From Hypoxylon rubiginosum (lineage: Eukaryota > Ascomycota > Sordariomycetes > Xylariales > Hypoxylaceae): a stretch of 64,000 bases of DNA. The stretch is taken from assembly GCA_902806565.1 (NCBI GenBank), contig CADCXA010000059.1, positions 62,001 through 126,000 on the forward strand, read 5' to 3'. Shown in pieces: positions 12,731 to 46,696 of this stretch. Below the pieces are notes generated by a model. The model saw only the letters and a program-made list of their open reading frames with translations. It had not been told where the DNA came from and made no database searches. The stretch's first letter is position 1. The number at the start of each line of letters is the position of its first letter. Made by a program: the position numbers and the translations under genes.

Positions 12731-14469
12731 GTCGATTATTGGTATGTTTACGTCTTTTTCTTGAAGGGGATAGGATTTTCAGTGTTTCTGCTGCAAAGTT
12801 CGATTTTCTTGAGAGAAGATGGGTGGCAAAGTAGGTGTATTTGGTCTGCAGGCCAAACAGTAGTTGATGTGCGTCTTCAGCAACAAAAAAAAAAAGAAAG
12901 GGAAAAAGGTTGAAGGCACATGCGTACCTCAGGTTATGCAGGTACCTAGAGAAAACAGAGGAAGATTTCCGCGGTTACGATGCTGAAGACGCCTGTCGAT
13001 TATATAATAAGTTACCTACCTGCCTGGTAGTCTAGACGATATAGATTAAGTATGAACAGGACGAGGATTCCCGTTCGCATGTGTCAGTTGCGGTTAATCA
13101 AACTACACTGTTTCTTTCCACGGATGCTCGTCTTATTGTTTTATAAGAACTCGCCATGATATGCGTTCTAAAGGCTCTTTGCTGCGCATAAATTTCACCA
13201 ACTCACGTCCATGTTGTCTTTTTTTTTTGGTATACCATAGTAGCTGAAATACCCTAGACAACTTAGTTTGCCCTTCCAAATTGATTATCAAACCCCATCC
13301 AAATGCGTATAATATCTTAGCCGGTTTCGCCGGTGACTCGTTCGATGGTATCTACATCGTACCTATATCGAAACCGTATTTGGTAAAAATAAGAGCATAC
13401 TTCTACCAATCTCTCCTAGGGCTTGATGGTCGGCTAGAGAGGCGCAACAAAAGGCTAACTGGCCGTCTATGGTGTCACAAGACCGTCCAAGCAACGAGAG
13501 AAACTAAGACGTTGTTGCACGAGGAGCTATATACCTAACAGCTACGAACGTCTTCGTATATACGAGAATGGCAGACAAAGAAGCCTGTCGGGCAAGGGAA
13601 CTCATCGTCCGCCTCCGATACCCCTGGTGGTATAAGCACCCAATACCGCCATTCTAGGGGCCACGATACCTCCCGGATAGTAAGGGCTAGGTTTGTGTGA
13701 CAAGACCTAAGTCCTGACATATGGTATTGTAGTGTTTATAAGTACCTGAAATAAGAACTCTTTGCGTAGCTAGATTATGTAGTCAGACATAGGATCTAAA
13801 GGCTTTGTCACATAAACCACGTGTGATTATAACGTACAGCCATTCCTAGATTATCCCAGTATTATTTCTTCAATTTATACCCACGAGTCAGTTTGTCATT
13901 TGTGTAACCGTAATAAAGGGGTAGGTTTATCCGTTACCTTTTTAGGAGACAGGGAGGAGGGATTGATGCCTAAAAGGGCCAACTGCTATGTGGTATTTTG
14001 GAGGCATATTATATTTCAACTATTTGTTCTCTTATATGTTAGTACCTTTGGCACTTATTGAAAGGGGATGGGTCTATCTCATGTTTTGAACCAACCCTAA
14101 TAAACTTGCAGCTACTAAAATACCAACTTGCCACTCTATTACTGTAGATAAAATGACTCTGAGATCAAGACGAGAATAGGTTCTTACCTAAATTGGTCTT
14201 GTACATTAATCGTTGTCATTATATACTTGGCAATAAATGAGCCAGCTGGATTCTGTACATTAATTGCAATCACGCGATACAATACGCTCGCAACTCATCT
14301 AGGCTGAGGCTCTGACATCGACCCGATTTTGTAATCGCTTATTATAAGGTAAACGCAATTTCCCGAGGAGGAGCTCCCAATGTTTATGCCATAAATAAGC
14401 TTGTAGCTTGTGATCTTCTTCTTTTGCTGTCTCGTTTTCGTCGACGAACACGATCCTTGCCTAATCAAC
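12731..14469. other. Divergent intergenic region of the zinc-finger pair, with a solo LTR
   Basis: Shared upstream region of the two divergent C2H2 genes. Apart from the LTR-like element at 13473-13719, placed about 745-750 bp from both start codons, it holds the motif TACCTACCTGCCTGGTA near 13013 and homopolymer runs near 12885 and 13220. No other gene is seen. Confidence 0.5.
13473..13719 (-). mobile_element. Solo-LTR-like element, copy A (247 bp)
   Basis: Ends are TGTCAC...CCTGACA (TG...CA termini with a TGTCA/TGACA inverted repeat). It is flanked by the 5-bp direct repeat TATGG at 13468-13472 and 13720-13724, as expected of a target-site duplication. The reverse complement aligns along its whole length with 16203-16423, which has its own different target duplication. 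TG/CA ends, 5-bp duplication and no coding content match a solo LTR left by recombination of an LTR retrotransposon. A non-autonomous DNA element with TGTCA ends is the alternative. The strand given is arbitrary, set opposite to copy B. Confidence 0.75.
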
Positions 14470-15118: not shown

Positions 15119-16792
15119 TATGGCAATCTTCAGCATTCGGAGCTGAGGTTTTCCTAACAGCGCCGCATAAACCTATTGAGCGCCTCCAGGGAGGTGTCTT
15201 TACGACGATTGTTATTACACTACGGTTGAACGAAGTAATGGATGACTGTGTTTTCCATTCGCCTAATATCACCACGCTTGCGTGAGATAGGCACCACTTT
15301 GCTCCTACCAGTAGACCGTAAGTCTACAGCGTTCATTACGAGGCCGTCGAGGTTCTAGCCTTTCAGCTTCAGACCCCCTGGACGGGGAGTGAACCGTGAT
15401 GGCGCCGGAGTTTGTTAGGGGGTGGGGGTTCGGAGGACAAAGGGCACCAGTGCCTGCCTAGGTATATATGCCCACAGACATTTGCTGTGAGGTTGATAGC
15501 TCACCGTGCAATGACGTCGTCGTTTCTGCGCTTTTTGGTTGCGTCTTGATAGGAGTGTTTCATGCTGTGATATGCTGCCGATGTCATGACTAGGGTTTCA
15601 AGACGAAAATTGCCATTATTTCCACAGTGAAGCTTGGATACATCTCTCTTGTTCGTCAGGTGCATACTAGCAGTCGATACAGTATGGCCACAGGCAATCC
15701 TTCAGAAACGTTGTACAGATGATGATTGGAAATGTTGAAAGTCGGATCACGAACTCGAGCTGTAAATTTATTACTTCTTTTGCCCTTAATCTACTTCTAA
15801 TAAGTGACATGGGGACTGAAAAACTGTTGAAGGAGTTTGCGTCTTGTCTTGGGCGACATAATTAGTTTTGTCTTGGCTAGGCTCGTAATTTGGATACTAT
15901 TAATCAGACCAGACGGGATTAAGCAAAAAGAGCTTTGTCACGATACCGAGTGTCTTGAATTCGTAGTCTTCACTTGTCTTCGTCTCTAATCCTTCAGGTT
16001 CTAGGGCTTGTTAGCAACTGACACAGTACACGGCGGGGTGTCATGCGGTGGTACTGAATAGGAGTACTGAAGTTTCACTCGACGGTCAACAAGGCATCTA
16101 AAGAGGATTTCATGGGATTCGATATGCTCGTTACACCAGAAATCCGTGACTTTCTTAGAGGACGCGCTGTAGATATGTAGGACAGCGCATTTAAACAGTA
16201 AGTGTCAGGACTTGGGTCTTGTTACACAGGAGGTATCGTGACCCCTGGAATAGCGATATCGGGTGCTTATACCACCAGGGATATCGGAGGCGAAGTTCCC
16301 TTGCCTGATGGGCTTCTTTGTCCGTCATTCCTGTATATACAAAGACGCTCGTAGCTGTTAGGTATATAGCTCCTCGTGCAACAACGTCTTAGTTACCCTC
16401 ATCGCTTGGACGGTCTCGTGACAGTAAGATTCATTGTCTTGTAAGGTCGTGAGGACCGAGTAATTGAGTCGACTGGTTCTGTGACGGAATGGAATCCCGA
16501 TGCCACACCGCTACACCACCAAAAGTGGAACGTTGTCAAGTCGGAGAATTAACTTCAAGCCACTTCGTCATGTAGTCATGTAGTCATGTACCTTAGAAAT
16601 GCGAGAGTTGCATAGAGAAAGGGAACACACGGCGCCATCTATGTGGGATTACGGAAGTCCGAAATCCATATGACTTGTTGAGTATTTGGTATTTGGAGTC
16701 GCATCTGATAAATGGTAAATGTAACCTTCTATATCCCCCTCACACATGCTACCTACGCGCTAATTCTTTGAAAGGTACATACATCAAACATC
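15119..16792. other. Intergenic with a solo LTR
   Basis: It holds the LTR-like copy B (16203-16423) and a threefold GTCATGTA tandem near 16567-16590. The rest shows no gene. Confidence 0.5.
16203..16423 (+). mobile_element. Solo-LTR-like element, copy B (221 bp)
   Basis: It starts TGTCAGGACTT and ends CTCGTGACA, flanked by the 5-bp direct repeat GTAAG at 16198-16202 and 16424-16428. It is inverted relative to copy A (13473-13719). By hand alignment it differs from copy A by two deletions (about 18 and 6 bp) and roughly 22 substitutions, nearly all C/T or G/A transitions, which fits RIP or CpG decay. No internal retrotransposon genes lie between the two copies, so these are separate insertions rather than one element. 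Confidence 0.75.
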
Positions 16793-20194: not shown

Positions 20195-23100
20195 AAGCCT
20201 TAAAATATTAAAACTTTATTTTTGAAATATTTACTTTTTATATATAAAAAGAATATAAATATTATTAAAAATAAAAATATTATATACTTTTTTATAACTT
20301 ATAATTATTATTAATTATATTTAATATATTAATTTATTATAATTTATTATTTTATTTAATTTAATAAAATAAAATAAAAAAAAAGTTTATAAATATATAG
20401 TTTTTTTTAGTTATTAATTTTATTAAAAAAGATATTTTAAAATATAAAAATAATATTATTTTAATAGTTATTATATTTTATTTTAATAAAATAAATTAAT
20501 TAATTTATATAAATAAATAAATTTTAAATAATTTAATTAAAATTTAAATATTTTTATAAGCTTTTATAAAAAAGATTATTTATTTAAATATAAAATTTAA
20601 ATAAGATTTTTTATAAAAATATTAATAAGTTATTTTAATATAATAATATTTTTAATTATAAATAAGTTATTATATATATTAATATAAATTTAAAGTTTTT
20701 AATTAATTATATTATTTAAATAATTAAAAAATAATTTAAATAAATAAGTTTTATAAATTAAAATAATATAAATAAGTTATTAAAATAAAAATAATATAAA
20801 TTATAATTTTTATAATAAAGTTTTAATAAAAAAAACCTTAATTAAAATAAGTTTTTTAATTTTTAATAATTTTAATATTATAATAAAAAATAATATAAGG
20901 TTTTTAATATATTTTTTAATTAAATATAAATTTAATAAGAAGTTATTTTTTATTTTATATATAATTTTTTATAAAAAATTTAAAAATTTAAAATTATAAT
21001 TATTAAATATATTTAATATAATATTTATAATTATTAAATAAATAATATAAGTTTTAATTAAATAACTTTATTAATAACTTTTTAAGTTTAAAAATAAATT
21101 ATATATTAATAAAATAATAAATATAAATTTTATTAATATTTTAAAAATATAATATAATTATATTATAATAAATATTTTTTATAATTTCTTTTTATATATT
21201 AAATTAAATATAATTATTTTAATTAAATAAATTATTTAAAATAAAATTAAAATTTAAATAAAATAATATTTTATTAATTATTAGTTGTTTTATAAAAAAC
21301 TAAACCTAGTTATTAATAAAAAAACTTAAATTATTTTTTTTTTTATATTTATAAAATCCTTTTAGTTTTTTAATAATAATTATTTTTTTAAGCTATTAAA
21401 GAAAAAATTTATTATTAAAAAATATAACTTTAAATATTAAAATTATTATAATATTAAATATTATAATAAATAATTTTATTATATTTATTATAATAAAAAA
21501 ATAAATTTATATAAATTAAATTTATATATAAATTTAATATAATATGTTAATTATTATAAGTTTTTTTTAATAAATTATAATAATTATTTTATTACTTTTA
21601 AAAAAAAAAAAATTAGATTATTTAACTTAATAAATAATAATTTTAATTAGTTTAATAAATAAAAGTTAAATAATATTAAAACAAGTATATTTAATTTAAT
21701 AATTAAAATAATTAAAATTTTAATAATAATAATATTATAATAATATTATAAATTAAAAAAATATTTTTATAAAAAATTAAAATAAGTAAAAAAAAAACTA
21801 AAAATAAAAGTTATATATTCTAAATAATTAAATTAGATATTATTTTTATTATATATAATAATAAAAACAAGTTTTTATTTTTTAATATTAATTTAAATTT
21901 TAATATTAAAATTAATAAAAATAAAAAAAAAGATATATAAATAAACCTTATTTTAATTATTAATAATATTATAAAATATAAAATTTATTTAATTATTATT
22001 ATAATTAAAGTAAATTAAAATAAACCCTTTTTATAAATAAATTAATATTAAAATATAGCTTAATAAAATAAAATAATTATATAAAAAACCGTTAAAAAAA
22101 AAAAACGCTGGTAAAATATATTAATTATTTAATATAATATAAATTATAATAATATTATATATAATATATTTTTAACATTTTATTATAATAATAATATAAA
22201 TATAATATAAAAATAATATTAAAATAAAAAATTATTAAATTTATATTTTATATTTTTTAGTTAATAAATAAAATATTAAAAAAAAGTAACTTAAAATAAT
22301 ATTTTATATTAAAAAAAAGATTTTTTAATAAATATAATTAAAATATTTTATTTTTATATAAAAAATATTTTAAATAAATATTAATAAATACGTGATATTT
22401 AATATTTATTAAAAAGCTAGGAAAAATAAAATTATTAATTATATTATTAATTTAAAATTACTTTTTAATTATTTAATTAATAAAAACTTTAATATATATT
22501 ATTTAAATTTTAAACTTAATTATAAAAACCGAAATAAAAAATATAATTTAATAAACTAATTAATAACTAGTAATATAATTTTTATAAATATATTAAAATA
22601 AGTTATTTAATATTTAAACTTAATAATAAATATAGTATTTTTTAATATTTTATTTATAAAAATAATAGTTACTAATAAGTTTTAAAATAAGATTAATTAT
22701 TATTTTTTTTTAATTATAATTTTTAAATAACTTATAAAATTATTATAAAAGTTATAATATAAAATAAATAATAATAATTAAAAGCGTTTTATAAAATTAA
22801 TATAAATAAATATTAAAATTTTATTAAAAATATATAATATAAATTTTAATAAAAAACTTAATAATTATATAAAAAAGTTTATAAAAATCTTTAAAAAAAC
22901 TATATAAACTATAAGTAAATTAAAATAACTTTTTTATAAATAAATAAATTAATAAACTAAGAAATATAAAATAATTTAAATAAAATTTAAAAAAATAAAA
23001 ATATAAAAAAACCTAAAAAAAAAAAGGTATATTTTAAAATAATAACATTTTTATTTAATAGTTTAAAAAGTTAAAAAAGCTTATTAATATAATATTATAA

Positions 23101-26100
23101 ATAAAGTTTATATAAGTTTTAAGTTTTATAAAATAATAAATTAATATAAATTTATATTTAAAATAACTTTTTTTTTTTTAAAATAAATAACAAAATTATT
23201 AAAAATAATATAAAAAAAATAAAAATATTAAAAAAAAAAATCTTTAAGCGTTTTAATATTAATAATAATCTAGATTATAACCTGTTAATTAATTAAAATT
23301 TAAAGAAATAAAAACTATTATAAACCGAAACTTTTATTATAAAAAAAATAAAAAAATATATAATAAAAATCTTTAATATTTTTTTAAGTATAAATTAAAT
23401 TATAATTTAATTTTTATAAGTTTATTAAAAATATATTAAATATTATATATATAAAATTTTCTTATAATATTTATAAAAAATATATTTCCTTATAAAATAA
23501 TATTAAATAAAAATAATTATAATATTTAAATTAAATAAAAAAAATAAATTCTTATTATATTTATAATATTTTATAATATTATTATTTTATTTAAATAAAA
23601 GTTTAAAAAGGTTTTTTATAAAAAAAATAATATAAATAACTTTAATATATAATATAATAAATTTATAATATTATAATATTTTTTTTTAAAAATTAATTAT
23701 AAATTTTATAATATTTTTTATTTATAATATAAAACACATATTAACTAATAAATATAAAATATTTATAATTATATTTAATATATAAAAAGCTTTTAATATT
23801 TTTTTAAAAAAACGTTTTTTAATATAAATATATTAATAAAACTAGTTAATATAATATTTAAACTTAATATAATTTTTTTTAAAAACTTAAAAAGTAAAAA
23901 TACGTTTTAAAAATATAGTTATTAAATATATTATTATTAAATATAATATATTTTAAGGTTTATTTTTATTATTTATTTTTTATATTTTTTATTTAATAAA
24001 AGTTTTAAAATAAAATATAAAATTAAAATTTAATTATATAAATAATATTTATTTTTATAAAGTATTATATATTTTATAAAAAAACATAAAATTATTAATA
24101 AATAATATAAAAAGTTTAAAAAAATAAGGTTTTATATATAAAATATATTTTATTTTTAAAAAATATAAGTTATTTTATTTAATAAAAACTAAAAATATTA
24201 AGAATTTATTTATTATAATTAATAAAATATATATTATAAAATTTATATTTTTATTTATATTAAAAAAAAAAGCACTAGTATTTAAATAATTAAATATATA
24301 ATTTAATAAAAAATTTAATTTTAAAAAATATATAATAAAATAAATTAATAAAAATATATTATTAGTTTAATATATATATAATTTAATTAATATAATTTAT
24401 AAGTTTTTAATAAATAAACTATAAAAAATAAATTAAATTTATAAAAAACCTAATATAATTTAATAAAAAAATAATTAATATTAAAATAAATAAATATATT
24501 ATTAAAATTAATAAAGTAATTAAAATAATTATTAAAATTATATTATTAGTTTAAAAGATTATTTTAATTTTTATATTATATAAAAATTTAAAGTTTTTAA
24601 TAATATAAAAAATTTTAAATATAACGTTAAAATGTTTTATATATTAATTATATATAATAAATTATAAATATTTTTTTATTTTTAAAATAAAACTAAAAAT
24701 AATAAATAAAAATAAAAATATTAAAAGCTTTTAAAAATTTAAAATTAAAATATAAATTATAAATAAATTTTTATTATTAATAAAAAAACCATTATTAATA
24801 TTATTATAATATTTTTTAAAGTTTAAAAAAAACCTTATAAAAAGATTATTAAAAGTAAAAATAATTAAGGTTTTTAAAAAATAACTTATTATTTTTTTAA
24901 AAATAAATATTATAATATATATAAATAAATTAAAAAAATAATTAAATATTAATTATAAAATAATTATTTTTTAAGGTAATAAATTAATAATAAAAAATAA
25001 AAAAAAGTTTTATTTTTATTTTATAATTTTTAATATAAAAGTAATAAAAGCTTAAAAAAACTTAAAATATATTTTAATAAAATTTTAATATTTTTATTAA
25101 TATAAAATATAAATATATTTTAATAATATAAAAGTTATTTAAAGGTTAAAAAATAATATTATAATATTTTTATAATAAATATATTATAAATTTTATAAAA
25201 TTATTAATATTTATAATATTAAAATTAAATAATATTTTAATTATTATAAAATAAATAAAAATAAATTTATAAATTAGCTAATTAAAAAAAATATAAAACT
25301 TAATAAAATTAATATAAATTATTTATAAATAATATATAATATTAAGTTTATAATATATAAAATTATTAAATATTATTAAAAAAACTAATAAAAAAAAATT
25401 AAAATTAATTTATTTATAAGATATAAAAACTAGAACTTTAATTATTAATTAAATTATTTTAAAAAACTATAAAAGTTTTTTAAATTAATATTTTATTAGT
25501 ATTTTATTATAAAAATTAAATATAAAAATTTTATTTAATATTATAAAAAGTTTAAATATTAAAATATTAATTTAAATTATTTTTATAAAAAAGTAAAAAC
25601 TTTAAACTATATATTATTTTATAAAAAAATATAAACGTTTTTTTAAAAATAATTAAAAAAATTATATAAATTTTTTAAAAATTAAAATAAAGTTTTATAT
25701 TTAAATTTTTTTATAAAAAATTATAAGGTTTTTAAAAAGTTTTTATATATAATAAATTATTTTAAATAAATTTATATTTATTAAAAGTTTATATTAAAAT
25801 TTTTTTTTTAATTATATATTTAAAGTTATTTTTAAAAAATATTAAAATATATTAAAAAAATAAAATAAAACTAAAAAATATAAAATTATAAAATATTATA
25901 TTTTTTTTTTATTATATTAATAATATTTAAGCTATTTAAATTATAATAAATAAATTTTTTATAAATTAACTTATAAAATTAATAAATTTAAAAATTTATA
26001 AAATTATTAATAAAATATAATTTTAATAATAAAAATAATAATTAAAAATTACTTTTAATTAATAAAAAAAAATATAATATGAGACATTTTTTAGTAACAC

Positions 26101-41170: not shown

Positions 41171-42099
41171 ATGAAGGCCGTTGCAGCTTTCCTTGCACTT
41201 GTGTCGGCCGTCCAGGCCCACTGTCAGTAGAAAGACTTCGGCATGTTGGTGACTGTATGGCTAATGACAAATCTCTAGACACTTTCCCTGCCCTGGTTGC
41301 GAACGGCGCGGCTACGACTAAATGGGAGTACGTTCGGAAGACGACCAACTATCAGAGCAATGGACCAGTGACCGATGGTATGTACGAAAATATGTCATGT
41401 TTCCATTTTTAACCCCAGGTTCCTGAACCCCCTTTTCATGTCTATCTTTAGTATAAATGCGTCAAAAAGCTTCGAGAAATAATTCACCTCGGAAATACTC
41501 GAGGGTTCTCAAGTACCAAGGGAAAAATGCTAACGCGACATGTTTCCATACACGCAGTCACCTCAGATCAGTTCAGGTGCTATCAGCTCGCCCCCGGAAG
41601 CGAGGGCGCTAAGACCATGAGCGTAGCTGCGGGCTCAACCGTCGGATTCACAGCTGATGCCTCTGTTTCCCATCCGGGCACTTTGCAGTTTTATATGGCC
41701 AAGGTTCCGACCGGCCAAAAGGCCGACTCGTGGGACGGCTCGGGTGCCGTGTGGTTCAAGATCTTCTCCCAAGGCCCCAACATCTCGCCTAGTGGCTTGA
41801 CTTGGCCCAGCCAGGGCGCGAGCACTGTCTCGACCAAGATTCCCTCGTGCATTCCCTCGGGCGACTACCTACTGAGAGTCGAGCACATCGCCCTCCATTC
41901 TGCTGGGTCTGTTGGAGGTGCGCAAACATACATCTCCTGCGCTCAGCTCACCGTTACAGGCGGAGGCAGCAAGACGCCTACCAACCTCGTCTCGTTTCCA
42001 GGTGCCTACAAGGCTACCGACCCCGGTCTCCTCATCAATATCTACTACCCGGTACCTACCACTTACACCGCCCCCGGACCGGCTGTTTTCACCTGCTAG
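41171..42099 (+). CDS. AA9 lytic polysaccharide monooxygenase, three exons
   Basis: join(41171..41222, 41279..41377, 41558..42099), 230 aa. The signal peptide MKAVAAFLALVSAVQA is followed directly by His17, the N-terminal histidine of the copper histidine brace. The second brace histidine is H89 in SVSHPGTLQFYMAKVP, and the axial tyrosine is Y175 in GGAQTYISCAQLTV with the conserved H164 and Q173. The family cleaves cellulose or related glucans oxidatively outside the cell, using O2 or H2O2 and an electron donor such as cellobiose dehydrogenase. There is no carbohydrate-binding module; the protein ends soon after the core. Intron 1 (56 bp) is ordinary. Intron 2 (41378-41557) is the repeated 180-bp introner-like element also found in the gene at 45176. 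Confidence 0.95.
41378..41557 (+). mobile_element. Introner-like element, copy 1 (intron 2 of the AA9 gene)
   Basis: A 180-bp intron with GTATGT donor, CTAAC branch site (AATGCTAACGCGACA) and CACGCAG acceptor, phase 1 after G. It aligns end to end with the 180-bp intron 45672-45851 of an unrelated gene: 135 of 160 positions are identical outside a 20-base segment with an indel, and AACCCCAGGT and GGAAAAATGCTAACGCGACA are identical. Exon sequences on either side are unrelated. This is the defining behaviour of introner-like elements known from other ascomycetes. GTATG at the 5' end can pair with CATAC near the 3' end, and GGTTCCTGAACC is a short hairpin. Confidence 0.88.
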
Positions 42100-42524
42100 T
42101 TTGTCATGGCTGGTTGGCAGGCTCCATATCGGGAGCAGGTACGAAGTAGTAGTGATAGGCTATAAGAATAAATAAGTTCTGCAAAGTCTTGGTTAAGTCA
42201 TAGTTCTGGTCGTGAATCGCGATATGTCTAGCATCTAGTAGTTATTACATGCTCCGTCAAGATTTCACTGGCTTGAGTCACTAACTGTTAAACTAATCCC
42301 ATCCAAGGACCAGACCATTGGCATGCTGTCACATTTCAAAGATGAGACGGCAAACTGAAAAGTTTGTTTCTTTTTATTCGATCACCATCAGTAAAATTAT
42401 AAGACCATACTCGAATCCATCTATCCTACTCCTGCCTCGTCTATGAAGCAGTCAAGTGGTATCGCTCAGCCCATTAACATAAATCGAATCACCTCCCCTT
42501 CTCGGTATCCCTTCATGAACTACC
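42100..42524. other. Convergent intergenic region
   Basis: 3' flanks of the AA9 gene and the small secreted protein gene. Nothing else seen. Confidence 0.5.
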
Positions 42525-43007
42525 TTAAGCGGTAGTAGCGTCAAATGACAGGAAGGTCGACTCGTTTCCGGCCTCGTCCTCGTCCTGCTGAATGTTGTTC
42601 TGGAGCTTCTTAGACTCGGTAGCCATGTCATCCGAAACATCCTCTCCCTGCGCCTGTTGGATCATGAGACGGATGATGGTCGCTTCAAGCTTAAGAACCT
42701 TGTTCTTTATCTTGCCACGCTGGATGGCGTCGGCCTCGTCGCCACTAGCCGCGTCGATGGCGGGGTTAAATGCCTCGTCCTCAGCGTCGTTGCAGATGCT
42801 GTTGACTGACTTGAGGAAGTCAATGTCGTCTTCGTCGGCGCTGGCTAGGTCGTTCATGTCTAGAGCGCTGAAGACGGCAAGAGCCTCCTGTTCTGCGTTA
42901 CCGGCGACACCGCCTGAGATGGAAATGTCGTCGTAGTTCTTCTGGGTGAAGACACCAGCCTGAACGGCGGCGGCGGAAGCAGCAATGAGAGCAATGGAGA
43001 AACGCAT
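42525..43007 (-). CDS. Small secreted protein of unknown function
   Basis: A single exon of 160 aa. The signal peptide MRFSIALIAASAAAVQA is followed by GVFTQKNYDDISISGGVAGNAEQEALAVFSAL. The mature protein is acidic and Ala/Asp-rich, with one cysteine (NSICNDAEDEAF). A helical middle (KIKNKVLKLEATIIRLMIQQ) precedes a final ESTFLSFDATTA. The SGG-AGNA-EALAVF pattern recurs in small secreted proteins of plant-associated ascomycetes, but no function is established to my knowledge. It is convergent with the AA9 gene, so both end in the same short spacer. Confidence 0.8.
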   Translation of the reverse strand: MRFSIALIAASAAAVQAGVFTQKNYDDISISGGVAGNAEQEALAVFSALDMNDLASADEDDIDFLKSVNSICNDAEDEAFNPAIDAASGDEADAIQRGKIKNKVLKLEATIIRLMIQQAQGEDVSDDMATESKKLQNNIQQDEDEAGNESTFLSFDATTA

Positions 43008-45175
43008 GATGGCGGAGTGGAGGTGGGTTTGTGAGGGTTTATATTTGTATATTGCTGTGCTGTTAACGACTGGCTGGCTTGGTTCGAGCTAGCGAAGCGA
43101 AGCAGAAAAGAAAGAATCCGAGTAATGGCAAGAAGCGAAAGAACAGCACAGCTGTACGAAATGAAAGGAAGACAGGAGGCTGTTGGGGAGAAGGTTTTTG
43201 CGATGGGATGAAGTGAGAAGATATTCGCGAATACGGGAACGGGAAGCCGTAGATCTTATACGACATGATTTTCATAAGAACCAGAAAATCATCTCAACAA
43301 TCCCCGGGTCCTCCGCCATCTGTCGGCAAGCGTAACCGAGGCATGAAGCATCGTGGTGAGCCGCGTATGGCACACTTGTGCTAGTCCAGTTGGTGTGCAA
43401 CGCATTTTGCGTGAAGAATCTCTTGGCTGAAACCACGCTCCTCTCCTACGTCGACATTTACGTACTATGTAGTAGCATCACAGGCCCGGCCAGCGGAGTA
43501 TTAGCCGATAGAATCAAAGAGCCTAAGAGGCGAACACCTGGAAATGGTCGGACGTGTCCATGGGACCCTGGGGGATCCTTCATTTACGGAAGGCAGCATG
43601 GTGGAGTGAACCCGCGCCCTGAAGATACCGACCAGTTTTGAAGTCGCTCTTGGCGCTATCATGAGGCTCCCGGGCACCCTGGTATCTTGGATTCGACGAA
43701 TACCTTGCTCCGTCCTTATTACCTACCTCCCAAGGTACACATTAGCGGTCAGCATGCACGCCATTCGTAAGAGTTGAACGTAGGTAAGCACTTAGTGAGA
43801 GAACAGACATCTCGAAGAGTTTTTACTTTTATCGTACTTTCTACAGAAGACAATGAGAGACTGCATGGCAGAAAAGAGGGAAGGAAAAGGGATTTCGTCG
43901 CGTCGTCTGAAGTAGAACCAGGGACAAGAAGTTGAATCAGGAACAAATAGAATCAGGGACAAGTACCTACCTAAGAATCGGGGACAAGGGGGGACGGTCA
44001 GCGGCTAGTCTAAGCGAAAGAGGTCTGGCTCCACTATCCCGGTGGCTAGCGAAACTGCAGGGCAGCCCCTGCCCTGTTACTGTTAGCTGTTAGCCCCTTG
44101 TTTGCCCCTTAGAAGAAAACCAACCCTTCTAGATTATCTACGTAGCACTGGCTAGCAGCCTGGCAGCCTAGGCACGAGCAGAGTACCCATTTCGAAGGGT
44201 TGAGAATCTTGGTATCTACTAACTACCTCATGGGCTTTACATCAAGGGGTTACCCCCGTTTTGGAGCATGGATTTCGAGACGTCCGAATAGAAAACAACG
44301 AGGTCGTATCGTATCGTAGCTCCGACATACCACCTCAGTAGCTAACGATGCTGAATTTACGTAGTCGATATCCATTCTGCTTATCTTAGCTGGTAGCTAC
44401 AGATTTATTGCCAACCTTAGCTAGGTACCTACCTAGGTACCTAATTGCACCGTGAAGCTGAGCTCTATCGCGGAGAGGTAGATGAAGCAAGCTTACGGGA
44501 CTTATCTTTTTCTCAAGTTTCATTTCGCCCGCCCTCGTTTGATTACAAGAGGTGTACTAAGAAGACCAACGCAACACGCCATCCGGTAGCTTTCCTACGT
44601 TGTCGCGTCGTGTTAGCCACCTTAGTATGAAAAAGGTTACGTAGCAGCACATCATTCTGTAGGCACCGATGAGTACCTACCTGGGGATTTTTCCTCTTCA
44701 ATCCAATAACTGGCCGGATTGGAAATAGAAATTGCTATGTCAGCAAATATTAGTGTCGACACTTTCACACGTATTACCTTTAAGTGCAGCTTCGGCGACT
44801 TGATTAATTCGATCCGAGAACTGCTCACAGTCAACTAGACTGTAAGCAAGATCATAACGACTAACTGTAAGCAGATCATAACGAATGGAAAGTCGCCGAG
44901 ACGGCGCTTGTGGGGATACCGGCGTATCTCGTTGATTTATAAGGCACTACTGATATCAGAGGCATGGTTAACACCGATTGCTATCGGGTCCTCGGGGTTG
45001 GCTTCTCGGATCTATCGTCATACCCCTCATCAATGGCGACATCGCCATCTGTACAAGCCATAGTAAGTTGATCCGGGCGACACGGCGCACCTCATGGGGG
45101 CATACAAGAAGGATGCTATGCTCCGCCTTAGAGCGTAGAGGGACATAGCTGAGAAGACAAGATACCCTAGCAGCC
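43008..45175. other. Long intergenic stretch
   Basis: No recognisable gene. It holds several TAGGTA/TACCTA palindromes, the clearest CTAGGTACCTACCTAGGTAC near 44421-44440, further copies near 43720, 43961 and 44673, and a 20-bp imperfect tandem (CTGTAAGCAAGATCATAACGA, 44840-44860 and 44865-44884). The last part is the upstream side of the monooxygenase gene. Confidence 0.5.
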
Positions 45176-46696
45176 ATGGCCGAACAACAGCAAAAGAAGA
45201 AGCAGCTCCATCTGGGCGCTTTCATGCGTCCCGTGTCCCTTCACACTGGCGCATGGCGATATCCCGGCGCCTACCCGGATGCCAACTTCAACTTCCAGCA
45301 CATCAAGTCGTTCGCGCAGAAGCTGGAAGCTGCCAAGTTTGATGCATTCTTCATGGCTGACCACCTAGCCGTATTGAACATGCCCGTAGAGGCTTTGCGA
45401 CGAAGTCACACCGTCACCTCGTTCGAGCCCTTCACTCTGCTATCAAGTCTAGCGGCCGTGACAGACCGCATAGGTCTTGTAGCCACCGCTTCAACAACCT
45501 ACGATGAGCCTTACCACATCGCGAGGCGCTTTGCAAGTCTCGACCACCTAAGCGGGGGGCGCGCAGGTTGGAACATTGTGACAACGGCCAACCCAGATTC
45601 CGCTCGCAATTTTGGCAAGGACGAACACAAGGAGCACGGCGAACGCTATGCTCGGGCCCGCGAGTTTTACGGTATGTACGAAAATATATCGTGTTTGTAT
45701 TTTTAACCCCAGGTTCCCAAACCTCCTTTCCATGTCTGTTTTAGCAAAGAATGCGTCAAACCCCTTCGGGAAATGATTCACCTTGTGAATACTTCAGGAT
45801 TCTTAAGTATTAAAGGAAAAATGCTAACGCGACATATTTCCATACACACAGACGTGGTAACAGGGTTGTGGGATAGCTTCGCCGACGACGCCTTCATTCG
45901 CGACGTCGAGAGCGGTATCTTCTTCGACCCCGCGAAGATGCACGTGCTTGATCACCACGGCGCAGAGCTTCACGTCAGGGGACCGTTAAATATTGCTCGG
46001 CCGCCGCAGGGATGGCCGGTCATTGTCCAAGCCGGACAGAGCGAGCCTGGGCGTCAGCTAGCTGCGGAGACGGCCGAAGTAGTCTTTTGCGCGCCGCGCA
46101 CTCTCGAGGCAGGGAAGGAGTTCTTCAAAGACGTCAAGGGGCGGCTCGCGGCGGTGGGCCGTGACCGCGACGACATGAAACTGCTACCCGCAGCCTTCAT
46201 AGTCATCGGAGATACCGTCGAAGAAGCCCAAGCGAAGCGACTTAAGCTAGATAGTCTCGTGCACTATGAGAGCTCCATCGCTTCGCTCTCTATTGCACTC
46301 GGACACGATGCTTCTACTTTAGACCCGGATGGTCCTCTGCCGACCGATCTTCCCGAGACCAACGCGAGCAAATCGGGCCGTGAAGGGGTCCTCAAGCTCG
46401 CGGCAACCGAGGGTCTAACCGTTCGCCAACTTGCCCAGAGATACGGCGGGTATTCGGGTCTCGCGTTTGTCGGTACGGTGGAGACTGTCGCTGACGAGAT
46501 GGAGCAGTGGATCGTCCAAGAAGGCTCAGACGGGTTCAACGTCGTCTTCCCTTTCCTTCCGCAGGGCCTTGATGACGTGGCTGAGCACCTGATACCCGAA
46601 TTGCAACGGCGAGGCCTCTTCCGTCAGGACTATGAAGGGACAACTTTGCGTGATCACCTAGGGCTCAAGCGTCCAAGCAATAAGTTCTTTTCTTGA
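45176..46696 (+). CDS. FMN-dependent luciferase-like monooxygenase (NtaA/SnaA/DszA type), two exons
   Basis: join(45176..45671, 45852..46696), 446 aa. The TIM-barrel flavin monooxygenase family is recognised from LGAFMRPVSLHTGAWRYP, FDAFFMADHLAVLN, TSFEPFTLLSSLAAVTDRIG, the hallmark SGGRAGWNIVTT and ARNFG. After the intron come DVVTGLWDSFADDAF, HHGAELHVRGPLNIARPPQG, PVIVQAGQS and GGYSGLAFVGTVETVADEME. These enzymes oxidise organic substrates such as nitrilotriacetate or organosulfur compounds using FMNH2 from a partner reductase. No reductase gene is seen here. The protein is probably cytosolic. The one intron (45672-45851) is the second copy of the 180-bp introner-like element; reading through it gives an immediate stop, so splicing is required. 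Confidence 0.92.
45672..45851 (+). mobile_element. Introner-like element, copy 2 (intron of the monooxygenase gene)
   Basis: A 180-bp intron with GTATGT donor, AATGCTAACGCGACA branch region and CACACAG acceptor, phase 1 after G (TTTTACG|GTATG). It matches intron 2 of the AA9 gene (41378-41557) in length, phase, orientation and sequence. By hand count, 19 of the 25 substitutions outside the indel segment are transitions. Both copies lie in the coding direction of their host gene. At 180 bp they are the longest introns in the window; others run from 54 to 169 bp. Confidence 0.88.

Follow-up and report, generated by a model that had tools for sequence, protein, structure and literature searches.

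The closest described systems to the introns analysed here are the [D1,2] sister stwintrons of Hypoxylaceae and Xylariaceae (Fekete et al.; PMC8469720, PMC12403724, PMC9024468), which come from the same order as our fungus and, from the parts of those papers considered here, perhaps include the same species. They are described as having imperfect terminal inverted repeats and a branch site that lies some 20 nt away from the acceptor, and as being inserted seamlessly in the absence of a target-site duplication, all of which resembles what we see; terminal repeats of about 45–55 nt, a further trait of theirs, are matched here in the predicted fold of the AA9 intron. Unlike them, our families A and C consist of single introns without nesting, with interiors that differ from those of our family B, and modules occur here in both orientations. 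Type-2 cropped sister introns of Hypoxylon sp. CO27-5 are described in PMC8469720 as canonical, about 93 nt long and made of inverted repeats; one copy here (L013) is similar at 89 nt, and a SIR2-like gene is the host both in CO27-5 and for L013. Family A differs from these in having an interior of about 100 nt in most copies and no central palindrome TTTCTAGAAA, which is absent from its consensus.

The introner-like elements of Dothideomycetes (Collemare et al., 2015, PMC4457414) are reported as highly similar canonical introns in unrelated genes and of recent gain; they belong to a different fungal class from the present host and are likened to ours by description, and the Hypoxylon set is described as having no primary similarity to the Capnodiales elements (PMC8469720). 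Introners derived from DNA transposons (Gozashti et al., 2022, PMC9860276) have inverted repeats in common with family A, but here neither target-site duplication nor splice-site co-option was detected. The same 2022 survey allowed for insertion in opposite orientation, and two-way insertion is described for algal introners (Huff et al., 2016, via the review PMC10228655). The ascomycete introner families are listed in the survey sections considered here as being without inverted repeats or target duplications (PMC9860276), which is part of the reason why reverse splicing of sense RNA has served as the explanation for introner-like elements in fungi. Mirror-image modules or two-way insertion in ascomycete introners were found in none of the literature portions searched.

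The window, that is, the whole stretch of DNA analysed, comprises 64,000 nt of Hypoxylon rubiginosum (contig CADCXA010000059.1, positions 62,001–126,000). Two of its genes contain introns that we assign to family A:

41171–42099, + strand: host gene 1, AA9 lytic polysaccharide monooxygenase (exons 41171–41222, 41279–41377 and 41558–42099)
41378–41557, + strand: family A intron of the AA9 gene, very probably introner-like, 180 nt, phase 1 (alignments, genome search)
41378–41405, + strand: left terminal inverted-repeat arm of the AA9 intron, imperfect, donor GTATGT first, pairing with the right arm in the predicted fold; inner limit (41405) set by eye
41529–41557, + strand: right terminal arm of the AA9 intron, with probable branch site GCTAAC (41529–41534) and acceptor CAG (41555–41557)
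45176–46696, + strand: host gene 2, nitrilotriacetate (NTA)-monooxygenase-family, luciferase-like (exons 45176–45671 and 45852–46696)
45672–45851, + strand: family A intron of the luciferase-like (NTA) monooxygenase gene, very probably introner-like, 180 nt, phase 1
45672–45699, + strand: left terminal arm of the monooxygenase intron, donor GTATGT first
45823–45851, + strand: right terminal arm of the monooxygenase intron, with probable branch site GCTAAC (45823–45828) and acceptor CAG (45849–45851)

The two introns lie exactly where an earlier note on this DNA had placed them, and, as it had stated, both are 180 nt long and break the frame in phase 1 after a G. The note had put their identity at about 84%; we measured 82% over 181 nt in a pairwise alignment and 83% (E 1.8e-46) in the whole-genome search. 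The 20-mer GGAAAAATGCTAACGCGACA, reported as common to both, is indeed the same in the two introns, and it holds GCTAAC, the probable branch site. Folding predicts that the arms of the AA9 intron pair along some 50 nt, with breaks, and those of the monooxygenase intron less far. That the hosts are unrelated also holds (AA9, PF03443, and Bac_luciferase, PF00296). Removal of the intron from the AA9 gene, which has a further intron at 41223–41278, leaves a single AA9 domain (E 4e-62, residues 17–220) with the junction after residue 50, and the intron site is read through at eight AA9 paralogous loci. In the luciferase-like gene the family A copy is the sole intron; the spliced protein is 84% identical to the Rhizobiales homologue P0046 with no gap at the junction, and Rhizobiales homologues read through the site. 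One outcome named in the earlier note as speaking against it was a lone pair of copies filling the same sites in distant orthologues; filled sites were not seen in AA9 paralogues or bacterial homologues, as far as this could be tested. An NTA-monooxygenase gene is also an intron host among the sister stwintrons of CO27-5 (P0008, named C153A protein, 93% identical). Pattern and profile scans of the window gave no third family A copy beside the AA9 and monooxygenase introns. Their spacing is 4.1 kb, and 16 copies in 48.3 Mb would by chance give 0.02 such close pairs, a figure to be read with the fact that the window itself drew attention by having such a pair.

A genome search gave 14 matches at 13 places (E 1e-88 to 3e-8), and additional copies were found by pattern and further queries. 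The earlier note had expected many copies genome-wide from an active or recently active family. There are copies beyond the two, at least 16 of family A in the 48.3-Mb genome, which is a modest number; they lie in different hosts wherever these can be named, and a family therefore exists. The word active is not supported for family A, since even the closest pair is just 92% identical (closest-pair identities among the 16 copies are 77–92%), and by its sequences the family looks old. Neither the lone pair nor the other outcome listed as adverse, copies mostly outside introns, was observed, as the search gave more than two and no copy was shown to be intergenic.

Most family A introns are about 180 nt long. 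GTAYG at the start and CAG at the end are present in all 16 copies, with boundaries set by us, and the right arm has GCTAAC in 13; column conservation is 0.97 at the donor and branch site and 0.86 in the interior. A single-arm pattern gave 28 matches (15 A arms, eight B, one C and four unclassified, L031, L033, L034 and L040), and its reversed control gave one. Two of the unclassified matches, L031 and L033, resemble ordinary intron 3′ ends. A search of Rfam returned one miRNA match, below threshold (25 bits against a gathering score of 83). Near full-length likeness between introns of unrelated genes is seen among the 16 A copies, the five copies of family B and the six canonical introns of family C, and we are highly confident that this is an introner-like family.

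The family A, B and C introns, the last with ADH, GH30 and SDR genes among their hosts, are predicted to be spliced. Of the 26 hosts scanned (L045 left out), 18 have a Pfam domain that runs across the splice junction; no Pfam domain was found in hosts L005, L008, L012, L046, L051, L052 and L054, in the L010 host the domain stops short of the junction, and for L003 an acceptor lying 43 nt downstream has to be assumed. The A and C hosts that have a Pfam domain join in frame as single, not nested, introns. No target-site duplication was detected among 27 copies, with flank repeats of mean 2.48 as against 2.45 in shuffled pairs (p 0.47). A one-nucleotide duplication of G may be present, because a G precedes 14 of the 16 A copies; this preference may reflect splicing efficiency instead of target choice. 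Donor and acceptor are both inside the conserved element, so neither is taken from the target.

Family B, in which the frame supports four of the five copies and the closest identity reaches 98%, is of the [D1,2] class, its internal intron splitting the external donor between G1 and U2. Removal of the extra G opens a long frame in L043 and L044 and a longer upstream frame in L046 and L047, L045 being ambiguous, and only G-removed versions were scanned with Pfam. No such split of an external donor was found in families A and C. Upstream of copy L013, in the SIR2-like gene, lies a stwintron whose downstream frame of 196 aa appears only with the extra G removed; its left inner half matches the left half of family A in forward orientation (z 20.6, 9 of 16 A copies). 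The outer ends of family A also match those of family B. We suggest that the [D1,2] sister stwintrons of Hypoxylaceae have in family A a relative without nesting, a kinship drawn through family B and the SIR2-gene stwintron within this genome, published copies being compared by description. The imperfect inverted repeats, this kinship and the mirror relation to family C described below were not part of the earlier note.

The interiors of families A and C are related as mirror images. In a comparison of half against half (9 of the 16 A copies, four of the five from B and four of the six from C; 60 shuffles; only pairs above z 2.5 considered), the right half of A aligns with the left half of C once the latter is reverse-complemented, with z 23.1, a value which, like all z values here, overstates certainty because copies within a family are not independent. 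With shuffles that, as in the half-against-half, profile and fold comparisons, permuted blocks of two bases and so kept the dinucleotide content only roughly, the C consensus resembles reversed A (z 7.2, reached by 0 of 500 shuffles) and not forward A (z 0.6, 142 of 500), and the aligned stretch extends beyond the centre of both elements. A profile of the C interior ranked 10 of 15 A interiors higher than any of 3000 decoys, these ten matches being collinear and on the minus strand, with an eleventh (L008) falling under the best decoy; the A profile placed 3 of 6 C interiors above the decoys, again all minus. Family B resembles A better when reversed: its profile matches the AA9 intron on the minus strand nearly end to end (E 3.7e-9, 32.9 bits, against 19.0 on plus), and its consensus gives z 2.8 with reversed A (4 of 500) and z 0.9 with forward A (102 of 500). 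B interiors gave no profile match above decoys to A or C, and the B and C consensus interiors show no likeness in the same orientation (z 0.2) and little when reversed (z 1.6).

When the whole 62-nt arms are compared, C and A are more alike unflipped (left–left 9.8, right–right 18.3) than flipped (15.1 and 6.8), whereas the arms of B are closer to those of A when flipped (19.9 and 20.1) than in the same orientation (17.5 and 17.1). With full-length profiles the plus strand scores higher in 7 of 16 A copies for the C profile and in 5 of 16 for the B profile, and the outer right end is common to C and A without any flip. We think that a real inversion of intron modules during the spread is probable. 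Some tests favour inversion of a half over a flip of the whole element, namely the whole-arm and full-profile results for C and A, the shared outer right end, and the forward A-type half in the SIR2-gene stwintron. A tree of the arms (11 of 16 A, five B and 4 of 6 C copies) had few columns and weak forks, the arms being too short to settle orientation. The counts of G·U against A·C arm mismatches (A 35/45, B 14/8, C 19/10), small and non-independent, lean to the mirror reading. Selection on sense-strand RNA structure was considered and rejected, as fold energies gave no clear strand preference: when all 27 copies were folded on both strands, z favoured plus in 7 of 16 A, three of five B and four of six C, and raw energy was lower on minus in 14 of the 16 A copies.

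We suggest that canonical U2 introns carrying donor GTATGT, branch site GCTAAC and acceptor CAG within imperfect terminal inverted repeats form the family, and that those of family A would have been copied into coding exons with the protein unchanged. An account in which A is an introner-like family, kin to the stwintrons and with a half mirrored in family C, appears likely, setting aside how copies are made. For the copying we propose, tentatively and with somewhat more doubt than belief, that fold-back intron sequence (RNA, cDNA or DNA) could be captured at breaks in transcribed exons; during copying, half or the whole of the near-palindromic element would become inverted by strand switching or by arm-to-arm recombination. 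We find it rather unlikely that these were two-way introns, whose palindromic ancestor had branch sites in both arms, went into genes in either orientation and was spliced from the transcribed strand. The branch site of the unused arm would then have decayed later, A and C would be descendants that became fixed facing opposite ways, and spreading would involve a step that is double-stranded or switches strands. The mirror site in the left arm, GTTAGC if intact, was intact in none of the A, B and C copies: six of the 16 A copies have GTTTCC there and the others a variant or a gap; GTCGGC occurs in three of the five B copies and three of the six C copies. Half-inversion, which is favoured when C is compared with A over whole arms and full profiles, lowers the odds of this reading.

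Reverse splicing has been proposed for other fungal introner-like elements. Here, spliced intron RNA of sense strand would be reverse-spliced into RNA or DNA and copied back, which fits the seamless in-frame junctions and splicing orientation seen where the host domain is known, and the lack of a detected target-site duplication. Alone, however, it yields no reverse-complemented modules and leaves the inverted repeats with no role, and we regard it as unlikely. About as doubtful, and if anything a little more so, is a history with no inversion, where A, B and C kept different halves of a fully palindromic ancestor and the reverse likeness is inherited symmetry. The published sister stwintrons are, as described in PMC8469720, symmetrical; the left and right halves of A retain a residual symmetry (z 4.7), and the right half of B resembles both A halves (z 6.5 and 4.3). 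This history would also accommodate the forward A-type left half in the stwintron and the better same-orientation agreement of whole C and A arms. Yet even decay of such an ancestor predicts equal likeness in both directions, and the C consensus is like reversed A only, in an alignment passing the centre of both elements. A miniature inverted-repeat DNA transposon of the algal type, moved by a transposase in either orientation with splice sites partly from target duplication, would suit the inverted repeats and the two orientations of the modules; we hold this to be improbable, as flank repeats do not exceed those of shuffled pairs, both splice sites are in the element and no copy was shown to be intergenic. 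Ordinary old introns, alike through gene duplication or conserved splice signals, can be dismissed almost entirely, for although L031 and L033 look like ordinary 3′ ends, the hosts differ and the likeness runs over the intron length. Chance similarity was set aside on the pairwise and genome-search alignments across unrelated hosts.

How new introns originate has been asked for a long time without a settled answer. The genome of H. rubiginosum contains, as judged from sequence kinship, a number of canonical relatives of the sister stwintrons that are not nested, and such relatives in this species are unreported in the portions of main text of the stwintron papers considered here. Inversion of modules during the spread, which we favour, would make the mirror-image halves a clue to how new introns form. 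Modules in both orientations together with inverted repeats call for a strand-switching or double-stranded step, and models of intron copying may in this way become separable by experiment.

Two unrelated genes of the window carry nearly the same intron, and the positions, length and phase that the earlier note had claimed for the two copies are borne out, as is their close likeness (82% identity over 181 ungapped positions in a pairwise alignment).

Window 41378-41557: family A intron of the AA9 gene, 180 nt, phase 1 after G
Window 45672-45851: family A intron of the luciferase-like monooxygenase gene, 180 nt, phase 1 after G

The 20-mer common to both includes GCTAAC, which is likely the branch site. 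After splicing, Pfam finds a single AA9 domain (PF03443, residues 17-220) in one protein and a single Bac_luciferase domain (PF00296, residues 31-296) in the other, each running across the junction.

The genome searched is the one from which the window comes (48.27 Mb in 70 contigs), and all copy counts in it are lower bounds. The AA9 intron as query gave 14 matches at 13 places, a 22-base pattern from the right arm gave 28 matches with up to three mismatches (the reversed pattern gave one), and one more copy came from an additional DNA query, so that family A comprises at least 16 copies (L001-L013, L075 at the place of L027, L036 and L077), of which L001 and L006 are the two in the window. 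With boundaries set by us, all 16 start with GTAYG and finish with CAG, and an exact GCTAAC occurs in the right arm of 13; lengths range from 89 to 200 nt, the majority being 166-200 nt. Column conservation is 0.97 at the donor and branch site and 0.86 in the interior. The closest pair (L001 and L002) is only 92% identical, gaps excluded, and the family thus shows no sign of the current or recent activity that had been proposed for it.

Comparison with related genes is compatible with intron gain. The AA9 protein finds 37 matches in the genome, and at eight paralogous loci one unbroken match covers both sides of junction residue 50, the genomic lengths leaving no space for a further 180 nt. 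A Hypoxylon texense protein matches the monooxygenase at 98% identity, and one from Pararhizobium arenae (P0046) matches it at 84% without a gap at the junction; the intron interrupts a GAC codon after its G, and the encoded Asp is present in both proteins. Because the protein is so close to bacterial ones, this suggests that the gene was transferred from bacteria and gained its intron later. Two GH30 paralogues carry, by eye, an A copy (L036) and a copy of a second family, C (L055), at different sites, each lacking the other's intron.

Elsewhere in the window, a block of about 6 kb (20200-26100), flanked by ordinary DNA of about 50% GC, has a GC content of merely 4-6% in five consecutive 1-kb steps (21000-25999), a composition typical of RIP-mutated repeats; introns of 180 nt are shorter than the usual RIP targets. 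An inverted repeat lies at 13473-13684 and 16218-16423 and is perhaps a TIR transposon; its arms, each about 210 nt long and 85-87% complementary, are separated by 2.5 kb of DNA with short frames, in one of which C2H2 zinc-finger-like motifs can be read by eye.

Two further families share their ends with A, the left arms resembling ACATGTCGTG and the right arms GCTAAC-CGACATGTTT. Family C has six copies (L051-L056), canonical introns of 116-160 nt. Family B has five (L043-L047), laid out as [D1,2] stwintrons: L043 and L044, 98% identical to each other, give a long frame only if an extra G is taken out, its removal lengthens the upstream frame in L046 and L047, and in L047 it yields the TTRYWDCCKPSC of GH45. 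At L045 (G000:C29:707477-707679) the B copy comes straight after an apparent intron end, read by eye between TATATACGTAG and TACGTATG (upstream in match L037), and three introns may be nested in this polygalacturonase-like gene. An exonic G precedes the donor in 14 of 16 A copies vs none of six C copies (Fisher p 0.0004), and the donors are GTAYG in A and GTGAG or GTAAG in C; because the families differ in these respects, whether an insertion persists may depend on the strength of its donor.

Another stwintron, of 226 nt (227 with its leading G), lies upstream of the 89-nt A copy L013 in a SIR2-like gene (G000:C38, minus strand), where a frame with 196 aa downstream opens under the stwintron option only. 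A SIR2-like gene of Hypoxylon sp. CO27-5 is listed with one stwintron and one cropped intron, and the NTA-monooxygenase gene of that strain with the cropped sister intron HCOc153A (both PMC8469720); here the NTA-monooxygenase gene (window 45176-46696), 84% identical to Rhizobiales, carries an A intron. The likeness of the SIR2-like genes would be explained either by shared insertions or by a preference for this host.

In most A, B and C copies the frame stays open across the junction once the intron is removed. Pfam was run on 26 of the 27 hosts, leaving out the nested case L045 and using the G-removed versions for B, and a domain spans the junction in 18 (12 A, three C and three B): AA9, DUF1996, MFS (twice), 2OG-FeII oxygenase, DUF726, isocitrate/isopropylmalate dehydrogenase, SIR2-like, fungal transcription factor, P450, alcohol dehydrogenase, GH30 (twice), short-chain dehydrogenase, sugar transporter, AMP-binding enzyme, GH45 and luciferase. 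For L003, among the 12, this holds only with an acceptor 43 nt past the element. Pfam found no domain in the putative hosts of L005, L008, L012, L046, L051, L052 and L054, and the domain in the putative L010 host stops short of the junction. An intergenic location was shown for none of the 27 A, B and C copies; the pattern search also gave four unclassified single-arm matches.

In their inner modules A and C are mirror images of each other, and the outer arms look unflipped. The C consensus matches the A consensus in reverse complement with z 7.2 (none of 500 interior shuffles as good) vs z 0.6 for forward A (142 of 500). A C-interior profile placed 10 of 15 A interiors above all 3000 decoys, all on the minus strand at about the same place, and an A-interior profile placed three of six C interiors above decoys, again all minus; compared over their full 62 nt, the arms of C fit those of A better unreversed than flipped. 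Among the halves, A right and C left score highest (z 23.1), ahead of A left and the left inner half of the SIR2 stwintron (z 20.6), the clearest link of A to stwintrons; A left with B right follows (z 6.5). On the AA9 intron the B profile matches the minus strand nearly end to end (E 3.7e-9; 32.9 bits vs 19.0 on plus). B interiors alone gave no profile match above decoys, the B and C consensus interiors show no similarity (z 0.2 the same way, z 1.6 reversed), and with full-length profiles plus scores higher in five of 16 A copies with B and seven of 16 with C. An interior inverted between its arms, or one half replaced by a mirror copy, would fit C and A best; B and A would be somewhat better explained by turning round the entire element. 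We think it rather unlikely that a palindromic ancestor inserted either way and was spliced from whichever strand was transcribed, A and C being fixed oppositely. Algal introners are described in a review as inserting in both orientations (PMC10228655).

As to how the copies arose, we favor a model in which fold-back intron sequence would be captured at breaks in transcribed exons, with an added step of strand switching or arm recombination; Fekete et al. propose a close capture model for stwintrons (PMC8469720). Reverse splicing of sense RNA is less favored, for it would yield seamless introns within genes but not mirror modules. Selection on the sense-strand RNA is not clearly favored by the fold energies of the two strands. 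Insertion by a transposase of the usual type is spoken against by flanks without excess repeats (2.48 vs 2.45 in shuffled pairs, p 0.47, 27 copies) and by a donor and an acceptor that both lie inside the element. Gozashti et al. describe the introner families of ascomycetes as being without TIRs and TSDs (PMC9860276), and our literature searches met with no description of mirrored modules in introns of ascomycetes.

In the one protein compared (database matches P0001 and P0004), identity is 98% to H. texense vs 95% to a record named 'Hypoxylon rub...'. A published table lists five sister stwintrons for H. rubiginosum MUCL 52887 (PMC12403724), the same number as the B copies found here. If the present genome is that of MUCL 52887, the strains that bear this name may belong to more than one species.
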